A stretch of DNA of 38,245 nt from Candidatus Sulfopaludibacter sp. SbA3 (GTDB lineage: Bacteria; Acidobacteriota; Terriglobia; 20CM-2-55-15), in NCBI GenBank assembly GCA_945865815.1, contig CAMBFR010000027.1, positions 1 through 38,245 of the forward strand, read 5' to 3'. Position 1 is the stretch's first letter. Each line of letters starts with the position of its first letter. A program made the translations under genes and the position numbers. Under the pieces are notes generated by a model. It saw nothing but the letters and a program-made list of their open reading frames with translations, was not told the origin of the DNA and did not search any database. Shown piece by piece: positions 19,679 through 30,731 of this stretch.

Positions 19679-22600
19679 TCAGAACACGTACTTCAACGCA
19701 AGTTGAATGATGCGTGGGTCGCCAACCGTTGTGATTCTGCCGAACTGTGCGTTGCTTAGAACGGTGCTGATTGGATTGTTCAGATTCACATGGTTCGGAA
19801 TGTTGAACGCTTCGGCTCGGAACTCGACGGTCTGAGTTTCCCGGAGCTTGAACGTTCGCGTCAACCCCATATCGATCCGTATGTTTCCTGGACCGAACAG
19901 GCTGTTGGCGCCCAAATTCCCGAACTGTCCTTCCGCCGGCGTGGCAAAAGCCGCGCGGTTGAACCACTGACCAACGCTCTTCTTTTCGGCATAACCATTC
20001 GGCAGTACTTGATTGGCGCGATCGCCATCGACCGCCGCCGTCAACGAAGTGTCTGTGCCGGTTGAGATAGTCAGCGGACTGCCCGTAGTCATGCGGACAA
20101 TTCCCGACACCTTCCAGCCGCCGGCCAGCGTCTGCAGAACTCGGTTGGCGAAGGTCGGCATCTCATACACGCTCGACATATTCAAATTATGCCGGCGATC
20201 CTGAGCGCAATTGCCGCGGTAATACGACCTCATGTCCTTGTATGGGTAGGAGGTCGGAATTCCAAGCTGGGTTTCTTCCCGGTCACCGAGGCAGTGCGAC
20301 CAGGTGTAGTTTCCCTGCATGGTCAGACCGTTGGTTCGGCGGTGCTGCGCCGAAAGCAGCAGGCCGTTGTAGTTGGCTGTGCCGCCGTCATCCAGCATCG
20401 CCATCCAGCCATACGACAGTCCCTTAGCCGGATCCTTCAAACTGAGGGCGCGCCGCGCGTCGAAATTGGCCCGCGAGGAGCAGGGACCCGGCGCCGTCAG
20501 TCCGTATTGGCCTGCCACACAGTTGCCCGGAATGACGATGACGGGGTTGAATTCGTAGCTGTGCCACAGATGGATGGTGGACGTTCCCAGGTAGTTCGCC
20601 GTGAGCAACCAGTTGTCGCCGAACTGCCTCTGCAGGCTGAGGTTCCACTGGTGGGAGTAGGGATTCTTGACGGTCTTCGGATACAGAGGGTAGCTGCCTC
20701 GAAGCGGGAACGTTGCCCGTTCCGGAGTCGTCGGAAAAGGATTTCCTCCGGGATAATCACGCCACGGATCGTCGAATCCACCTGCCGGGGTGTTGAGCGT
20801 GACGCCACCCGCATAAGGGGGGTTCACCAATACGGGCCCGGACTTCTGGGCGTACGGAAGCTCATAGAAGATTCCGTATGCGCTGCGGATGACCATGCGT
20901 CCGTCACCCTTCGGATCCCATGCCAGACCGAAACGCGGCGCCCACTGGTTCCAGACGTTGTTGCCGATCTTGAAGCCGGGAACTCCCGGGTCGCCCGGAA
21001 ACTGCAGACCCGGAGGCGCCTGAGGATACTTGACGCTCCGGATTCCGGCATCGAATGCGGCCTGATCGAAGAACGTGGTGTAGCCCTTCACGTGCGATGG
21101 CGGTTGATAGGGTTCCCAGCGCAAGCCGGCGTTGATCGTCAGCCGGGATGTCGCCTTCCACGTGTCCTGCAGGTAAAACGCGAAGTACTTCTGCCGCTTG
21201 TAGACGAACCCTGGGGAGGCCTGCGGCATGGACGACATGCGGCCCAGCAGCATGTCCACCAGTCCCTGGCCCGTTGTGGCGCCGTTGAACATCGGCCGGG
21301 GATTGCGGTTGAGGCCCAGCTGCGAGTTTTCGTGCGTGCGAATGAAAGTGCCGCCGAATCCGATCTGGTGCGATCCCTTGATCACACTGATATCGTCGGC
21401 AAACTGATACGTCACCGAATTGTAGGTGGCGGCGATTCCGCCGCCGCCGCTGACATTGAATCCGTTCGTGACAGCGATCAGAACGTACCCTGGGACGCTG
21501 TGGAACACGTTCTTAACGCCGAGATCCGGGAGATCGAAGTATTTCGGTGGCAGAGCGACGTTCTTCACGCGGTTGAACGTTCCACGGAAGGAATTGACCA
21601 TGGTTGGACTGATCGAAAACGACTCGCCCAGCACAAAAGAATAGACTCTGCTTTGAAGGTCCGATGCGCTGAACGTCAGGATGTTCTGTCCGTCGTAGTC
21701 GTCATTGTTGTGGACGCGCGAGTCGAGATAGCGTCCGAATATCGAATGTTGCTGGTTCAAGGTGTAGTCGACTTTTCCAACGCTGGTGTATTCATTGTTG
21801 GCGACTTTTCGGCTGAAGCGAACCGTGCCGCAGTCGTCCTCAGGCGTCGGCAGCTTGCCCGCAAGAGCCAACCCGGCAGGAGACAGCAACGAAGCCGGGA
21901 CTGTATAAATCGTATTTCCGTTGGCGTCGGTTCCACCATTGACAACCGGGGCTCTCAAGACTCTTTGAACTCCCCCGCTGCAGCCTCGTGAGGCGAAGGT
22001 CGTAAAGTTGCCTGCTTTCATTGCCGCCGTCGGGACGAACTGAGGCGTGGGACGGTTCGAGGCGCGCTCAACCGTTGTCTGATGTCCCGCGAAGAAGAAG
22101 AGTTTGTTTTGCCGGATCGGTCCGCCGATGGTTCCGCCAAACTGGTTGCGCTTCAGACTGTCGGGCGCCTGAGTGGCCGCGTTGTTGGCATTGAAGGAAT
22201 TATTCCGGACAAATTCGAAGAGGGAACCGTGAATTTCATTGGTTCCCGACTTCGTGACGGCATTGACCGCGGCCGCGGAATGATGGCCATATTGCGCCGG
22301 CAGGGCATTGGTTTCGAGTTTGAACTCCTGCAGGGCGTCCGGGAACGGCATCGTGACGCCGAGGCCCGTGTACACGTCGTTGTGGACTCCGCCATCGAGG
22401 TTGTACGCGATGCCGGAAGCCTGGCCGCCCGCGACGGAGATCGCCACCTGGTTGTATCCGCGCGCGCCGTACCCGAAAGAAGCGCCGCCCTGAACGGCTC
22501 CGCCCGAAATCAGGATCAGATCGGACACCCGCCTTCCGTTGAGCGGTAATTCCAGCACTCGAATGTTATCCATCACCTGACCGACGCCGGTCGAGCGAGT

Positions 22601-23005
22601 TTCCACCAACTGCGCGTCCGCCTGGACCTCGATCTGTTCGCTGACCTGGCCGACGTCAAGGACGGCATTCACCGTTGGGTTGCTGCCGACCTGCAGAACA
22701 ATGCCGGTCTGCACATACGTGCGGAAACCCGGCAAAGTGGCCTCGAGGCGATACGGGCCGATGGGCAGATTCGTGAATACGTATGTACCGGTTTCATTCG
22801 TCACGGCGTTTCGCGGCAAACCCGTATCGGATTGCGTCACAGTCACTTCCACGCCGGGCAGGACCGCTCCACTCTGGTCTCTGACTGTTCCGTTCATCTG
22901 CGCCGTCGATTGCGACAGGACGACCGTAACGCTGACGATCAAACCTAAAACAACGCCGAGCAGGTTGATCTTTCTTTGGAATCGTTTCCTTCTGCGCTCT
23001 TTCAA
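19679..23005 (-). CDS. TonB-dependent receptor with carboxypeptidase-regulatory-like domain (Oar-like)
   Basis: An 1108-residue outer-membrane receptor. After a basic n-region (KERRRKRFQRK) and hydrophobic stretch (INLLGVVLGLIVSVTVVLSQ) comes a CarboxypepD_reg-like domain (MNGTVRDQSGAVLPGVEVTV to about residue 105). It is followed by the plug region (VLELPLNGRRVSDLILISGG; NAVTKSGTNEIHGSLFEFVRN) and a long barrel ending LALKYVF with a terminal Phe. This is the receptor type expanded in Acidobacteriota, thought to import large glycans or other ligands. The start is placed at TTG 23005 because AGGAGGT (23011-23017) lies exactly five bases upstream and the product then begins with a normal signal peptide. 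The upstream ATG at 23062 would add 19 residues with no ribosome site. Confidence 0.88.
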   Translation of the reverse strand: MKERRRKRFQRKINLLGVVLGLIVSVTVVLSQSTAQMNGTVRDQSGAVLPGVEVTVTQSDTGLPRNAVTNETGTYVFTNLPIGPYRLEATLPGFRTYVQTGIVLQVGSNPTVNAVLDVGQVSEQIEVQADAQLVETRSTGVGQVMDNIRVLELPLNGRRVSDLILISGGAVQGGASFGYGARGYNQVAISVAGGQASGIAYNLDGGVHNDVYTGLGVTMPFPDALQEFKLETNALPAQYGHHSAAAVNAVTKSGTNEIHGSLFEFVRNNSFNANNAATQAPDSLKRNQFGGTIGGPIRQNKLFFFAGHQTTVERASNRPTPQFVPTAAMKAGNFTTFASRGCSGGVQRVLRAPVVNGGTDANGNTIYTVPASLLSPAGLALAGKLPTPEDDCGTVRFSRKVANNEYTSVGKVDYTLNQQHSIFGRYLDSRVHNNDDYDGQNILTFSASDLQSRVYSFVLGESFSISPTMVNSFRGTFNRVKNVALPPKYFDLPDLGVKNVFHSVPGYVLIAVTNGFNVSGGGGIAATYNSVTYQFADDISVIKGSHQIGFGGTFIRTHENSQLGLNRNPRPMFNGATTGQGLVDMLLGRMSSMPQASPGFVYKRQKYFAFYLQDTWKATSRLTINAGLRWEPYQPPSHVKGYTTFFDQAAFDAGIRSVKYPQAPPGLQFPGDPGVPGFKIGNNVWNQWAPRFGLAWDPKGDGRMVIRSAYGIFYELPYAQKSGPVLVNPPYAGGVTLNTPAGGFDDPWRDYPGGNPFPTTPERATFPLRGSYPLYPKTVKNPYSHQWNLSLQRQFGDNWLLTANYLGTSTIHLWHSYEFNPVIVIPGNCVAGQYGLTAPGPCSSRANFDARRALSLKDPAKGLSYGWMAMLDDGGTANYNGLLLSAQHRRTNGLTMQGNYTWSHCLGDREETQLGIPTSYPYKDMRSYYRGNCAQDRRHNLNMSSVYEMPTFANRVLQTLAGGWKVSGIVRMTTGSPLTISTGTDTSLTAAVDGDRANQVLPNGYAEKKSVGQWFNRAAFATPAEGQFGNLGANSLFGPGNIRIDMGLTRTFKLRETQTVEFRAEAFNIPNHVNLNNPISTVLSNAQFGRITTVGDPRIIQLALKYVF

Positions 23006-23017
23006 CTTCCACCTCCT
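23003..23017 (-). promoter_or_regulatory. Ribosome binding site deciding a TTG start
   Basis: AGGAGGT on the minus strand (23011-23017) is a full-strength Shine-Dalgarno, five bases before TTG (23003-23005). It decides the start of the TonB-dependent receptor gene against the longer ATG frame. Confidence 0.65.
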
Positions 23018-23386
23018 GAGCCCATTGTGCTCAACAACACCTGCTTCATCTTCCGCAGTCATTGTCCCAACCTAAGTTGTTAACACCGAACGATTAAATT
23101 TGCGCGGAGTATGACGCAGTCCGCAACTAAGAGTCCAACAAAACCTTCGGTGCACAGTGCAGTGTTCTCACCCATCAGCGAGGATGATGAAGCAATTGGA
23201 AACCTGGCGGAAACGGCGATTTTCTTACAGCTGTTTCTCCGGTTCAATGGATGGATTGGTCCCGAATTCTATGCCTGCCCGGATCGCTGAACACCGTACC
23301 TGAAGGGCATACCGGTTTCGCCGGCCAAGGAGACGCTACAACCGTAAAAATGGAGATTCTCGAAGCACGGATTCAAAAGACTCTTG

Positions 23387-26179: not shown

Positions 26180-26530
26180 TCAACGCGTCGGCAGCAAAAG
26201 GATGCTCGAACCGGAGGGTACGCCGTGGAGTTTTGTTTTGGCAGGAAGCGTTATCGGCTTTCGGAAATGAAATGCGTGTTGAAACTCAGGCTGATACTCA
26301 TAGAGCCATAGCAGCGGAATCACGGCGCCATCGGGAACCTCTGCAATTACCTGGAACGACGCTCCCTTCGAAACGTTCTGGGGAATGATGCCGTCCAGCC
26401 TGAACTGTCTCGGCAAGACGAAGTCCGCCCCCGCCGGGATGGCGCCTTTCGGCGTTCTTTGGAAACCTGCAGGAACCCAAAATCGGGGCGCACTTCTTCT
26501 CGGCGGATAGATCCTAAGGGTAGTGGTCAT
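26180..26530 (-). CDS. Hypothetical protein, signal peptide apparently frameshifted off
   Basis: A 116-residue unrecognised protein, rich in Pro and aromatic residues (VPAGFQRTPKGAIPAGADFVLP; PLLWLYEYQPEFQHAFHF; LHGVPSGSSILLLP). Codon use looks coding. No ribosome site precedes the ATG at 26530. In the same frame upstream the DNA continues as LCALALASSPPAAGHDA, and a second frame supplies an ATG at 26618 followed by MTRQVFGLAVIL. Joining the two frames by removing one surplus base around 26571-26584 gives a clean signal peptide. The real gene is therefore probably 26180-26618, exported, and either frameshifted or mis-sequenced. It converges with the aldo/keto reductase gene. Confidence 0.55.
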   Translation of the reverse strand: MTTTLRIYPPRRSAPRFWVPAGFQRTPKGAIPAGADFVLPRQFRLDGIIPQNVSKGASFQVIAEVPDGAVIPLLWLYEYQPEFQHAFHFRKPITLPAKTKLHGVPSGSSILLLPTR

Positions 26531-26743: not shown

Positions 26744-28678
26744 ATGGCAAAGCCTAAGAAGAACTCATCCACCCGCCGCGGTTTTCTAAAGGGCGCGGCA
26801 GCAGGTGTTGCAGCGGGAGCAGCAGCCCTGGTTACCGATATTTCAATCGCTGAAGCCCAGCAAGGGGCGGCACGCACTGAGGCCGCTCCCATTGTCGTTC
26901 CCCCGCCGATGCAGGCGCAGATCGACCGGGACGCGGGCAATGTCCGGCCGCCAGCTGCAGCCCGGGCGGTTAAGAATCCCGGCTCCGATCTCATGGTGCA
27001 AGTGCTGCGTGATCTCGGAGTGGAATTCGTCGCTTCGAACCCTGGATCGAGTTTCGAAGGGGTGCAGGAGTCGATCATCAACTATGGCAACCCGCCGAAC
27101 GTCAATCCGGAATTCATTACGGCCCTGCACGAAATGTCCGCCGTCGACATGGCTCACGGGTACGGCAAGGCTGAAGGCAAACCCATGGTCGCGATGCTGC
27201 ACGGAACTCTCGGCATTCAGAATGCGGCAATGGCCATCTATCAGGCTTACTACGACCGCACGCCAATGGTCCTGCTTGTTGGACGCGACGAAGGCTTCAT
27301 CCAGGCCCACACCGCACACGACATGGCGGCCATGTGCCGCAGCTTTACAAAGTGGGACGCCACGGGAAAGACTCTCGTTGAATCCCTGGCTGCGATTCAA
27401 CGCGCGTACGCCGAAGCGATGGCGCCGCCACAGGGCCCGACGCTCGTGGTGCTGGACATGGAGCATCAAAAGGAAGAAGTACAGGGAGTGAGAGTGCCGG
27501 CCTATCGGCCCCCTCAGATTACGGGTCTGGATGCGACACGGGTGCGTGCCATAGCGAAAGGGTTAATCGACGCCCAGAACCCGAGGATTGCGGTGGGCCG
27601 TTTGCGAACGCACCAGGGTGTCAAGCTCGCCGTGGAATTGGCGGAATCGGTGGGCGCCACAACGACCACGGCGGCAACCAACGGCCCCATGAGCTTCCCG
27701 CAACGGCACCCCCTCTGCGGGCCGGGAGCAAGCACCACGTACGACTTTGTTCTCGGACTGGAGGCGCCCGGCGCGCAATATTCTCTGACCGGCCCGGGAT
27801 TGGCCACGCTGCTGAGCCGTGACACGATGCAAGTTGGATTCGGAGGCATTGCGCCGCCCCCTCCGGGAGCTACCGGCCGGGCCGCTGCAGGCCGCGGCAA
27901 CGCGGGAGCGAACGATATTGAGATCGATGCCGAAGCCAGCCTGAAGGGCATCATTGAAGAAGTCGCACTTCAGCTAACCGCCGACAAACGGCGAGTGATC
28001 GGGGAACGCGCGGCGAAGCACGCCGCCGCAAATCAGGAAGCCCGCATGAAGGCGCTCAACGATGCGGTTCAAGTCCGAAGAAACGGCTGGAATGGCAGTC
28101 CGATCGCCACGGCTCGGATTTACGCCGAACTATGGCCGCTGATCATGAACGAAGACTGGTGTCTCGCCTCACCCACAGGTTTTTCAGGCGGCCACAATGC
28201 CGCGCTGTGGGACCACAACAAGCCTTACAGCTACCTCGGCAGCCAGGGCGCAGCAGGCATGGGTTACGGCCTCGGGGCATCCGTTGGCGCAGCGCTGGCA
28301 GCGAAGGTGCGGGGCCGAATCGTCATCAATATCCAGTGCGACGGCGATTTCAACTATTCTCCGGGCGCGATCTGGACGGCCGCGCATCACCGGCTCCCGA
28401 TGCTCACCATCATGCACAACAACCGCGCCTGGCATCAGGAATTCATGTTTGTTGAATACATGACCGGAGTCCGCGGCCGGGGTACAGACCGCGGGCATAT
28501 AGGTACGACGCTGAGAGATCCCGACATCGATTACGCGAAACTGGCGCAAGGTTACGGAATGGCCGCAGAAGGCCCCATTACGGATCCGTCGAAACTGCTG
28601 GCAGCACTGAAACGCGGAGTGGATTCCGTGAAACGCGGTGCACCATATCTCATCGACGTGATTACGCAGCCACGCTAA
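26744..28678 (+). CDS. Tat-exported thiamine-diphosphate-dependent enzyme
   Basis: A 644-residue member of the acetolactate synthase/benzoylformate decarboxylase/pyruvate oxidase superfamily. The N-terminus carries a textbook twin-arginine signal, STRRGFLKG (Arg 11-12), a hydrophobic stretch and AEA-QQ cleavage near residue 38. The Pyr domain (about 80-255) has the catalytic-Glu motif ALHEMSAVDMAHGYGKAEGKP. A weakly conserved middle domain (about 265-390) ends in a Gly/Pro/Ala-rich loop. The PP domain has the ThDP/Mg motif CDGDFNYSPGAIWTAAHHRLPMLTIMHNN with the double Asn. Superfamily members are cytoplasmic as a rule; Tat export would carry the folded, cofactor-loaded enzyme out. AGGAG precedes the ATG by about eight bases. 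A cytochrome c gene follows 26 bp downstream. Confidence 0.88.
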   Translation: MAKPKKNSSTRRGFLKGAAAGVAAGAAALVTDISIAEAQQGAARTEAAPIVVPPPMQAQIDRDAGNVRPPAAARAVKNPGSDLMVQVLRDLGVEFVASNPGSSFEGVQESIINYGNPPNVNPEFITALHEMSAVDMAHGYGKAEGKPMVAMLHGTLGIQNAAMAIYQAYYDRTPMVLLVGRDEGFIQAHTAHDMAAMCRSFTKWDATGKTLVESLAAIQRAYAEAMAPPQGPTLVVLDMEHQKEEVQGVRVPAYRPPQITGLDATRVRAIAKGLIDAQNPRIAVGRLRTHQGVKLAVELAESVGATTTTAATNGPMSFPQRHPLCGPGASTTYDFVLGLEAPGAQYSLTGPGLATLLSRDTMQVGFGGIAPPPPGATGRAAAGRGNAGANDIEIDAEASLKGIIEEVALQLTADKRRVIGERAAKHAAANQEARMKALNDAVQVRRNGWNGSPIATARIYAELWPLIMNEDWCLASPTGFSGGHNAALWDHNKPYSYLGSQGAAGMGYGLGASVGAALAAKVRGRIVINIQCDGDFNYSPGAIWTAAHHRLPMLTIMHNNRAWHQEFMFVEYMTGVRGRGTDRGHIGTTLRDPDIDYAKLAQGYGMAAEGPITDPSKLLAALKRGVDSVKRGAPYLIDVITQPR

Positions 28679-28704
28679 CTCGGACAAGGAGTATCAACGA
28701 GCAT

Positions 28705-29172
28705 ATGAATGTGAAGAATCTGCGGACAACCGTTCTGCTTGCCGCCGTGGCGCTTCTGATTCCCGTCATCGCCGGCTTCGGTGAGGCCGTAGCAGCCGGT
28801 CAAACGGCTGCCCAGCAGCCGCCTGGCCCGGCGACTGGAAACGCCGCGAGCGGAAAAAACCTGTACTATGCTCAGGGCTGCTATGGATGCCACGGCTTTA
28901 ATGGAGAAACCGGGACTCGCCTGATCGGCAGTCCGAGCCGGAATCTCACAAGTGAACCGGGTTTTATTGCATTTCTTCGGCTCCGGGCGGACCAGGCGCC
29001 GTTGCTGCCTGCGACGCGAATGCCAAACTACCCGGAGAACTCCTTGAGTGACCGGCAGGCCAGGGACATCTACGCCTACATCCGATCTTTCAAGAGCACC
29101 ACACCGGAACTGAAGGACATTCCTGCGCTGAACCTGATCATCGAGGCGGCTAAGAAACCGTACACCCCATAG
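28705..29172 (+). CDS. Periplasmic mono-haem cytochrome c
   Basis: A 155-residue exported c-type cytochrome. A signal peptide (LLAAVALLIPVIAGFGEAVAAG) precedes a Pro/Gly/Ala linker and the haem-attachment motif CYGCH (residues 59-63). RMPNYPENSLSD probably supplies the Met ligand, and DIYAYIRSFKS is the usual final helix. It lies 26 bp after the Tat-exported ThDP enzyme gene and is the natural candidate electron acceptor for it. AAGGAG lies ~13 bases before the ATG, somewhat far. Confidence 0.88.
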   Translation: MNVKNLRTTVLLAAVALLIPVIAGFGEAVAAGQTAAQQPPGPATGNAASGKNLYYAQGCYGCHGFNGETGTRLIGSPSRNLTSEPGFIAFLRLRADQAPLLPATRMPNYPENSLSDRQARDIYAYIRSFKSTTPELKDIPALNLIIEAAKKPYTP

Positions 29173-29214: not shown

Positions 29215-29470
29215 ATGAACGTGTTTCTTGATGCTCCTTCAAGGATCCGGTTTATTTCTGTCCGATGACAGCGGACTGCGATATTCGTTCGAGCGCACCG
29301 GGGTTTTGTCCGCGCTGCGGCATGAAGCTGGTTGCGGGAGTTCCCGAACCGGCAGGTTACCACCTGACCTGAGGATCAACCCGCCTGTCCCAAAACAAGG
29401 AAGCCAGGCGCGTCTCACCTTCGTCGTGTGTGCCGGTCCGGCCGTTGTAAGGTTTCACGTCCCCGAAACG
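29215..29470 (+). pseudogene. Frameshifted relic of a CPxCGM metal-binding-domain protein
   Basis: An ATG at 29215 with GGAGG five bases upstream opens MNVFLDAPS and soon hits a stop. The frame then shifts to KDPVYFCPM followed by DIRSSAPGFCPRCGMKLVAG and PEPAGYHLT, ending at TGA 29370-29372. A third frame continues as LRINPPVPKQGSQARLTFVV and ends near 29465. The pieces together match the N-terminal third of secreted proteins with a heavy-metal-binding CP-x-CGMKL domain followed by a beta-sandwich. Two single-base losses and a 3' truncation against the neighbouring gene are needed to explain it. It was probably the third gene of the ThDP enzyme/cytochrome operon. Confidence 0.7.
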
Positions 29471-29471
29471 A

Positions 29472-30731
29472 CTATCTCCCCGCTGGTGTCCGCTGTACGG
29501 CGGGAATCTGTACCGGCGTCGTATCGTCCTTGTTCTTGTCGTTAATCGTGACCCAGGTCATGTAAAGGACGTGCATCTCTTCCCAGACCTGCTGTCCGTA
29601 TTTTACGGGCGTTGTGGGGTCCGGATTCAGTGCGTTGGCCGGAGAGTTGTCGTAAGTGCCCGTGTACTCCACGAAGGCTCCTTTAGGCACGCTGGCCGGC
29701 TCCGACAGCACGTAGTAGTTCTGCCAGGAATCGTCCCATCGCGGGATGTGGAGCATGACGCGGCGCTGGCCATCCGGAAGAATCAGCGAAGCCGTTGCGG
29801 TCTTTCCGCGGACGTGCATGTGCGGCCGGAAGGCCTGAATGCGGGCGTCGGCTGGAAACTGAAATGCCGCCATGGCCTCGTAGGTGTCCTCCATCGGCGG
29901 AACCAGCAGGGCGTTATTACTGATCACCAGCGTGTTGACTTGCGTGTGAACCGGCGTCCGGGCGAATTTGAAACCGACTCTGGTCTGATCGGTCTGCTCT
30001 TTGCCGATCGCGTTGTAGTGCATGCCAAACACAATGCGGGTTCCCTTCGCGAGCAACTTCCCATATCCCTCTTTCCAGACGATGGCCTCCAGCCCAGGCG
30101 AGTACAGGTGCAGATTTCCGGATGTCGCGTTTGGACGATCGGCAGGCGGTTCGGCGTCGGCAATGGCATGATGCACGACAGCACGATTTCCGGGACGGAT
30201 CTCGATCGCCTGCACCCACGTATCTTCCGGGAAAACGTACTCGTTCGAGGGCAGGTCGACCCATGGAATCGTGCCGCGGGCCGGAACGGTATATGGTGCG
30301 GCCATCGTGAGCACAAGGTCGGGAGTTCCGATCGACCAACCTTCCGCAAACTGCGGCGTGGGAGGTAAATCCGCCGGGTTGCCTTCCCTGGACCCGCCGT
30401 CGACCCACGCGACAATCGTGTCGAGATCCTTCCGGCTCAGCATCCGGTCACCCTGAAAGCTGCCGTGTTGGGAATCTGCCTGCCAGGGCGGCATACGACG
30501 GTTCAGCACGGCCTGCCGAATGGATTTCGCCCACGGCCGGGCTTCCTTGTAGTTCATCAGCGAAAACGGGGCGACTTCACCCGGGCGGTGGCAGTACACG
30601 CAATTGGAATTGAATAGCGGCGCTACATCCCTGGAATACGTCACGTCGGCGGCCGCCGTGTTTTGTCCATGAGTGGTGGAGTCGGGAATCAGAATCAGCA
30701 CCGTAAGTGCGAGCAAGAGCCAGTAACGCAT
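29472..30731 (-). CDS. Cytochrome c/copper type II monooxygenase-like fusion
   Basis: A 419-residue exported protein with two modules. After the signal peptide comes a cytochrome-c-like N-terminus with CVYCH (residues 44-48) in DVAPLFNSNCVYCHRPGEVAPFS. The rest resembles copper type II ascorbate-dependent monooxygenases of the peptidylglycine hydroxylating family: VVHHAIADAE supplies the paired His, FGMHYNAIGK another His, and FRPHMHVRGKTA a third set. Fusions of this type are common in Acidobacteriota and Planctomycetota; the substrate is unknown. GAGGAAA precedes the ATG. It follows a small secreted-protein gene 14 bp upstream and converges on the relic of 29215-29470. Confidence 0.82.
   Translation of the reverse strand: MRYWLLLALTVLILIPDSTTHGQNTAAADVTYSRDVAPLFNSNCVYCHRPGEVAPFSLMNYKEARPWAKSIRQAVLNRRMPPWQADSQHGSFQGDRMLSRKDLDTIVAWVDGGSREGNPADLPPTPQFAEGWSIGTPDLVLTMAAPYTVPARGTIPWVDLPSNEYVFPEDTWVQAIEIRPGNRAVVHHAIADAEPPADRPNATSGNLHLYSPGLEAIVWKEGYGKLLAKGTRIVFGMHYNAIGKEQTDQTRVGFKFARTPVHTQVNTLVISNNALLVPPMEDTYEAMAAFQFPADARIQAFRPHMHVRGKTATASLILPDGQRRVMLHIPRWDDSWQNYYVLSEPASVPKGAFVEYTGTYDNSPANALNPDPTTPVKYGQQVWEEMHVLYMTWVTINDKNKDDTTPVQIPAVQRTPAGR

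Follow-up and report, generated by a model that had tools for sequence, protein, structure and literature searches.

A gene pair in a 38,245-nucleotide stretch of Candidatus Sulfopaludibacter sp. SbA3 DNA (the whole stretch analysed, here called the window) encodes a thiamine-diphosphate (ThDP) enzyme with a predicted Tat export signal and, directly behind it, a mono-haem cytochrome c. We consider it very probable that the two form an exported redox pair. The best reading of their function, which we regard as fairly probable, is a periplasmic oxidative decarboxylase unit in which the cytochrome c takes up the enzyme's electrons.

The enzyme and cytochrome genes

The source genome is a 4.34 Mb draft, 98% complete, whose nearest named relatives are Acidobacteriota. 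The features of the locus are listed below in window coordinates; BFDC is benzoylformate decarboxylase.

26744..28678, + strand: ThDP-dependent enzyme, predicted to be Tat-exported, benzoylformate-decarboxylase fold, 644 aa (open reading frame, Pfam, and fold Z 31 to 2fn3/1bfd over 481–485 residues)
26744..26863, + strand: Tat signal peptide with n-region, RR motif, hydrophobic region and AEA cleavage-like site (from sequence)
26768..26794, + strand: twin-arginine motif STRRGFLKG, residues 9–17 (from sequence)
27131..27133, + strand: catalytic Glu130, aligning with BFDC Glu47 (74/74 members)
27200..27202, + strand: His153, aligning with the BFDC active-site His70 (73/74 members)
28340..28348, + strand: Mg/ThDP motif D533-G534-D535 (74/74 members)
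28418..28423, + strand: Mg/ThDP motif N559-N560 (74/74 members)
28439..28441, + strand: Glu566, which follows the NN motif, an acidic residue specific to the clade (Glu in 74/74 members, Asp in 11/11 of the sister clade)
28705..29172, + strand: mono-haem class I cytochrome c, 155 aa, signal peptide 28705 to about 28797 (open reading frame, Pfam)
28879..28893, + strand: haem-binding CYGCH, C59–H63 (CxxCH in 62/62 paired cytochromes)
29020..29022, + strand: Met106 of an MP motif, presumed distal haem ligand (invariant in the cytochrome alignment, 62/62)
29241..29430, + strand: frameshifted third-gene remnant of a heavy-metal-binding-type CPMxxDxxxxxPGFCPRCGM protein (intact in two relatives, L017 and L018)

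The enzyme frame begins with ATG and has AGGAG upstream, and the cytochrome gene, which follows after 26 bp, has an AGGAG of its own. Pfam TPP_enzyme_N matches residues 80–182 of the enzyme (E 1e-19, 70.8 bits vs a cut-off of 26.8) and TPP_enzyme_C matches residues 486–639 (E 6e-23, 81.7 bits vs 21.9). An earlier, sequence-only reading had called a full-length ThDP enzyme, a 26-bp gap and a mono-haem cytochrome; its coordinates are exact, and Pfam matches the domains. The cytochrome has the marks of a class I c-type cytochrome: a Sec-type signal peptide, a single CxxCH (CYGCH), a distal Met and a Cytochrom_C profile match (E 2e-10, 42.6 vs 21.3 bits). Foldseek with the cytochrome model returned no confident match (all E > 0.07), and the sequence profile is the better evidence. 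Repeat and promoter scans of the enzyme/cytochrome locus found nothing.

Predicted export by the Tat pathway

The 644-residue protein begins with a textbook Tat signal, MAKPKKNSSTRRGFLKGAAAGVAAGAAALVTDISIAEAQQ. Its N-terminus, MAKPKKNSSTRRGFLKG, is followed by a hydrophobic stretch and then by a cleavage-like site between AEA and QQ; the (S/T)RRxFLK motif, hydrophobic region and cleavage-like site that characterise Tat substrates are all present (STRRGFLKG...AEAQQ). An RRxF(L/I/M) motif is found in all 71 family members with an intact N-terminus, and we therefore reject a misread motif. Pfam TAT_signal matches 13 of 27 aligned members, and TatC is encoded in the source genome. Judged from these sequences, Tat export of the window enzyme is well supported. 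The enzyme would fold and load ThDP and Mg in the cytoplasm and then cross the membrane via Tat, ThDP loading presumably preceding export.

A distant ThDP group of Acidobacteriota (L025 in genome G029 and L027 in G003; ~30% identity) also has Tat-like N-termini, RRSF(V/I), and no cytochrome; L026, a close relative of these two, is without the motif. Their N-termini perhaps reflect a second, independent export.

Conserved pairing of enzyme and cytochrome

A scan of GTDB genomes yielded 24 contigs from Bryobacteraceae, Terriglobia, 'gp5/gp6' Acidobacteria and marine Gammaproteobacteria, all with the same cytochrome downstream and with the RR motif on every intact N-terminus. Widening the sample by genomes of relatives, of the phylum and those behind nine loci gave 75 members above 600 bits, all from Acidobacteriota and Gammaproteobacteria. 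The 71 whose 3' flank extends for 450 bp or more enter the pairing count. The cytochrome lies directly downstream of the enzyme in 61 of the 71 readable flanks, and in two further members it lies upstream, within a four-gene tandem ThDP1-cyt1-cyt2-ThDP2. About ten family members have no adjoining cytochrome, and the distant ThDP enzymes retrieved alongside have no such cytochrome either. The source genome encodes ~50 cytochrome c domains, from which we estimate that a random downstream cytochrome would occur at ~1%, compared with the 61/71 seen; chance adjacency is therefore rejected.

The family is patchily spread (14 of 396 Acidobacteriota genomes and 1 of 369 in a gammaproteobacterial class sample), with up to 5–7 copies in Bryobacteraceae-type genomes. 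The source genome itself holds two more exported-type paralogues, 44% identical: G000:C111 (L061) has its own cytochrome, and G000:C79 (L060), one of the members counted above as unpaired, has none nearby. A plasmid search added two cultured members with both Tat motif and cytochrome. In Caballeronia zhejiangensis, TARRTFLKE is followed by a dihaem cytochrome annotated as 'c-type cytochrome' (WP_244808613.1/WP_244808614.1), and in Novosphingobium sp. KACC 22771, TTRRNFL is followed by two cytochromes. With two cultured hosts, the exported ThDP/cytochrome pair is directly testable.

Gene fusion (Rosetta stone) between the two partners was not noticed among the long open frames in the family searches. 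These frames, L084 (779 aa) and L085 (780 aa) among them, run to the end of the ThDP profile, and a separate cytochrome follows each.

Active site and fold of the enzyme

Residues were mapped by alignment on BFDC, and conservation was counted over 74 family members. The catalytic Glu130 and the Mg ligands D533 and N560 are each invariant, and a degenerate ThDP site is thereby rejected. S102, which aligns with BFDC Ser26, is kept in 71 of 74 members and the clade-specific H564 in 72 of 74; the central region that carries BFDC His281 is unaligned with the window enzyme at sequence level.

An AlphaFold2 model built from 27 sequences is of moderate quality (pLDDT 70, pTM 0.72), and its best structural match is BFDC (Z 31.0, rmsd 4.2 Å, 481 residues), with which model residues 78–643 align. 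Domains PF02776 and PF02775 of the ThDP-dependent decarboxylase superfamily are present in 27 of 27 aligned members. The window enzyme misses the NCBIfam cut-offs for PRK07092, benzoylformate decarboxylase (169 vs 493 bits), and for PRK08327, thiamine pyrophosphate-requiring protein (180 vs 456 bits). The pyruvate oxidase model is absent from the best 25 models matching the window protein, and its cut-off is missed by the relative L041 (88 vs 742 bits). Because no curated subfamily cut-off is reached, we place the enzyme in the superfamily, yet in no named family.

A single clade of predicted exported enzymes and its sister clade

In a quick tree of 99 sequences, with the signal region left out and a midpoint root used for drawing only, the exported proteins form one clade of 74 (SH-aLRT 99) drawn from Acidobacteriota and from Gamma-, Beta- and Alphaproteobacteria. 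The sister clade of 11 (SH-aLRT 92) has neither Tat signal nor cytochrome. An aldehyde dehydrogenase gene adjoins five of its nine members on annotated plasmids, and others have genes for a tricarboxylate transporter or for phthalate metabolism next to them. Most simply, export and cytochrome would have been acquired together in one lineage, the cytochrome taking the place of the cytosolic relatives' dehydrogenase.

Proposed reaction and its alternatives

The sequence-only reading had proposed a periplasmic 2-oxo-acid oxidase or decarboxylase that passes electrons to the cytochrome, and had tied this to a Tat motif, a cytochrome neighbour and ThDP-binding residues that homologues retain. All three are retained (71/71, 61/71 and 74/74), so export and a functional pair are well supported; the reaction is the part of that proposal that we still infer. 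The sequences show the features on which the proposal builds: the export signal, the intact ThDP site, the fold, the haem and Met ligand of the cytochrome, the conserved pairing and the co-variation described below.

We propose that the enzyme would attack a 2-oxo acid, possibly an aromatic, benzoylformate-like one, or an aldehyde. The enamine/carbanion on ThDP would be oxidised by the cytochrome c of the next gene, most likely in two one-electron steps, with a carboxylic acid as product, and the cytochrome would relay the electrons to a haem-copper oxidase. The source genome encodes two COX1 (haem-copper oxidase) genes and Cytochrom_C_asm (cytochrome c assembly) genes. We regard it as reasonably probable that the cytochrome receives its electrons from the enzyme. 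Direct, flavin-free transfer is a more tentative suggestion, with slightly less than even prospects, and the same caution attaches to the full description of the pair: a periplasmic oxidoreductase, free of flavin, with a 2-oxo acid (or aldehyde) as donor and a dedicated cytochrome c as acceptor that would oxidise the ThDP carbanion directly. Such chemistry has a precedent in DXP synthase, a flavin-free ThDP enzyme in which pyruvate undergoes oxidative decarboxylation through single-electron steps, O2 or dyes being the acceptor (PMC11908136).

The substrate would be a 2-oxo acid or an aldehyde. Aromatic 2-oxo acids are weakly favoured by the BFDC fold, by the aromatic-acid context in Caballeronia and on the sister-clade plasmids, and by AAHS-type transporters, which adjoin the acidobacterial members L066 and L068; we hold an aromatic substrate to be possible, if somewhat doubtful. 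The AAHS aromatic-acid transporter and a formate-THF ligase are confined to a few related loci (L064, L066 and L068), and a Rieske/meta-cleavage cluster near the pair occurs in Caballeronia only.

Against the favoured oxidative reading stand the unpaired members, among them the C79 paralogue, the moderate quality of the ThDP enzyme model, and the non-oxidative reactions of relatives whose function is known. The enzyme could instead be an exported non-oxidative ThDP decarboxylase or carboligase that makes a periplasmic aldehyde or acyloin, the cytochrome serving an aldehyde dehydrogenase encoded elsewhere. Its nearest solved relatives, BFDC and benzaldehyde lyase, are of this kind, aldehyde dehydrogenase genes pair with the sister clade, and Glu566, six residues beyond N560, stands at what we take to be the spacing of the essential proton-donor Glu of pyruvate decarboxylase. 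However, no other redox enzyme, aldehyde dehydrogenase included, is common to the neighbourhoods of the exported clade, where the cytochrome alone is kept, and we judge this alternative unlikely.

Oxidative decarboxylation by a route like that of pyruvate oxidase, through a flavin that sits in the central domain and reduces the cytochrome, is less likely again. Related ThDP oxidases use FAD, and D395 is invariant in the exported clade, whose central domain (the FAD-binding region of those oxidases) is poorly conserved and so diverged that TPP_enzyme_M is detected by sequence in just 1 of 27 aligned members; but the fold search with the model ranks the flavin-free BFDC above the FAD-containing acetohydroxyacid synthases.

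A cytochrome that is a general electron carrier, co-transcribed by happenstance and with no direct link to the enzyme, would fit the members that lack one, but it is very unlikely given adjacency in 61 of 71 flanks across two phyla and the partners' co-variation. The distance matrices of enzyme and cytochrome, compared for 62 pairs, have a correlation of r = 0.91, a value reached in 0 of 2000 permutations and explained in part by shared descent; most paralogues keep their own cytochrome, and the nearest enzyme goes with the nearest cytochrome in seven of eight tests between paralogues of two genomes. That the RR motif goes unused and the enzyme acts in the cytoplasm, as other ThDP-superfamily enzymes of known function do, is the least credible reading, since motif and hydrophobic region are kept in 71/71 and missing from the sister clade, and the partner cytochrome is a periplasmic-type protein.

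Comparison with known systems

Benzoylformate decarboxylase (MdlC; 1bfd, 4q9d) and 4-hydroxybenzoylformate decarboxylase (6qsi, 7orx) resemble the window enzyme in fold (Z 30–31, 20–25% identity) and share with it the catalytic Glu, the Ser26 and His70 positions, the DG...NN motif and an NYSxxA(I/L)WTAA stretch. Unlike them, the window enzyme has an RGRG loop, Glu566 and an extended N-terminus. Benzoylformate decarboxylases are cytoplasmic and are not known to have a cytochrome partner. The PRK08327-like cytosolic sister clade (e.g. on pCAR3 of Novosphingobium KA1) is closer, at ~29–38% identity, with the same catalytic residues and KWD and NNR motifs, but lacks Tat signal and cytochrome and often lies near aldehyde dehydrogenase or tricarboxylate transporters.

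Under the proposed scheme, the window enzyme would feed respiration by ThDP-dependent oxidative decarboxylation, as pyruvate oxidase (PoxB) does, but PoxB is cytoplasmic, FAD-dependent and quinone-reducing, whereas the window enzyme is predicted to be exported and is paired with cytochrome c. With the side reaction of DXP synthase the window enzyme would share the flavin-free one-electron oxidation of the ThDP intermediate; DXP synthase is cytoplasmic, has O2 or dyes as acceptor and has no known cytochrome. Periplasmic dehydrogenase/cytochrome pairs, such as methanol dehydrogenase and its XoxG or cytochrome cL, are built as proposed for the window pair, one operon encoding the exported dehydrogenase and the small cytochrome c that serves it, with PQQ as cofactor in place of ThDP.

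ThDP enzymes are generally viewed as cytoplasmic. The open-access full-text literature holds no description of an exported ThDP enzyme/cytochrome pair that we could find; the author of the sequence-only reading knew of no such reaction type. A flavin-free ThDP:cytochrome c oxidoreductase, which we rate as a little short of probable, would be an enzyme class undescribed in the open-access literature searched. If the proposal is true, ThDP joins PQQ, Mo and flavin as a cofactor of periplasmic dehydrogenases feeding cytochrome c, in a family that is conserved, monophyletic and multi-copy, and uncultured soil Acidobacteria and marine Gammaproteobacteria might not need to take up (aromatic) oxo acids in order to oxidise them.

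Other genes near the pair

The remnant just after the window cytochrome reads CPMTADCDIRSSAPGFCPRCGM; its frameshift is possibly an assembly error, and the intact heavy-metal-binding-type gene sits behind the cytochrome in L017 and L018. As a conserved third gene, this CPM/CPRC protein (3 loci) and DUF6152-type genes (12 loci) are both too scattered for a core. The DUF6152 (PF19649) genes recur near exported ThDP genes, for example at L044 4153–5373 and L039 4594–5877. The tandem ThDP1-cyt1-cyt2-ThDP2 loci (L066 1–8886 and L068 1–8095) have an aromatic-acid MFS transporter and a formate-tetrahydrofolate ligase nearby, and L066 also a cobalamin-independent methionine-synthase-like protein; for L064, L066 and L068 a link to C1 metabolism or aromatic O-demethylation is possible.

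Elsewhere in the window, 29472–30731 (−) encodes what we take to be a copper type II monooxygenase-like protein with a cytochrome-c-like N-terminus, and a short separate frame on the far side of the enzyme/cytochrome pair, 26180–26530 (−), presumably resembles the end of such a protein. A large TonB-receptor-like protein with a carboxypeptidase-regulatory-like N-terminus, judged by eye, lies at 19679–23062 (−) and is, we assume, of the kind expanded in Acidobacteriota.
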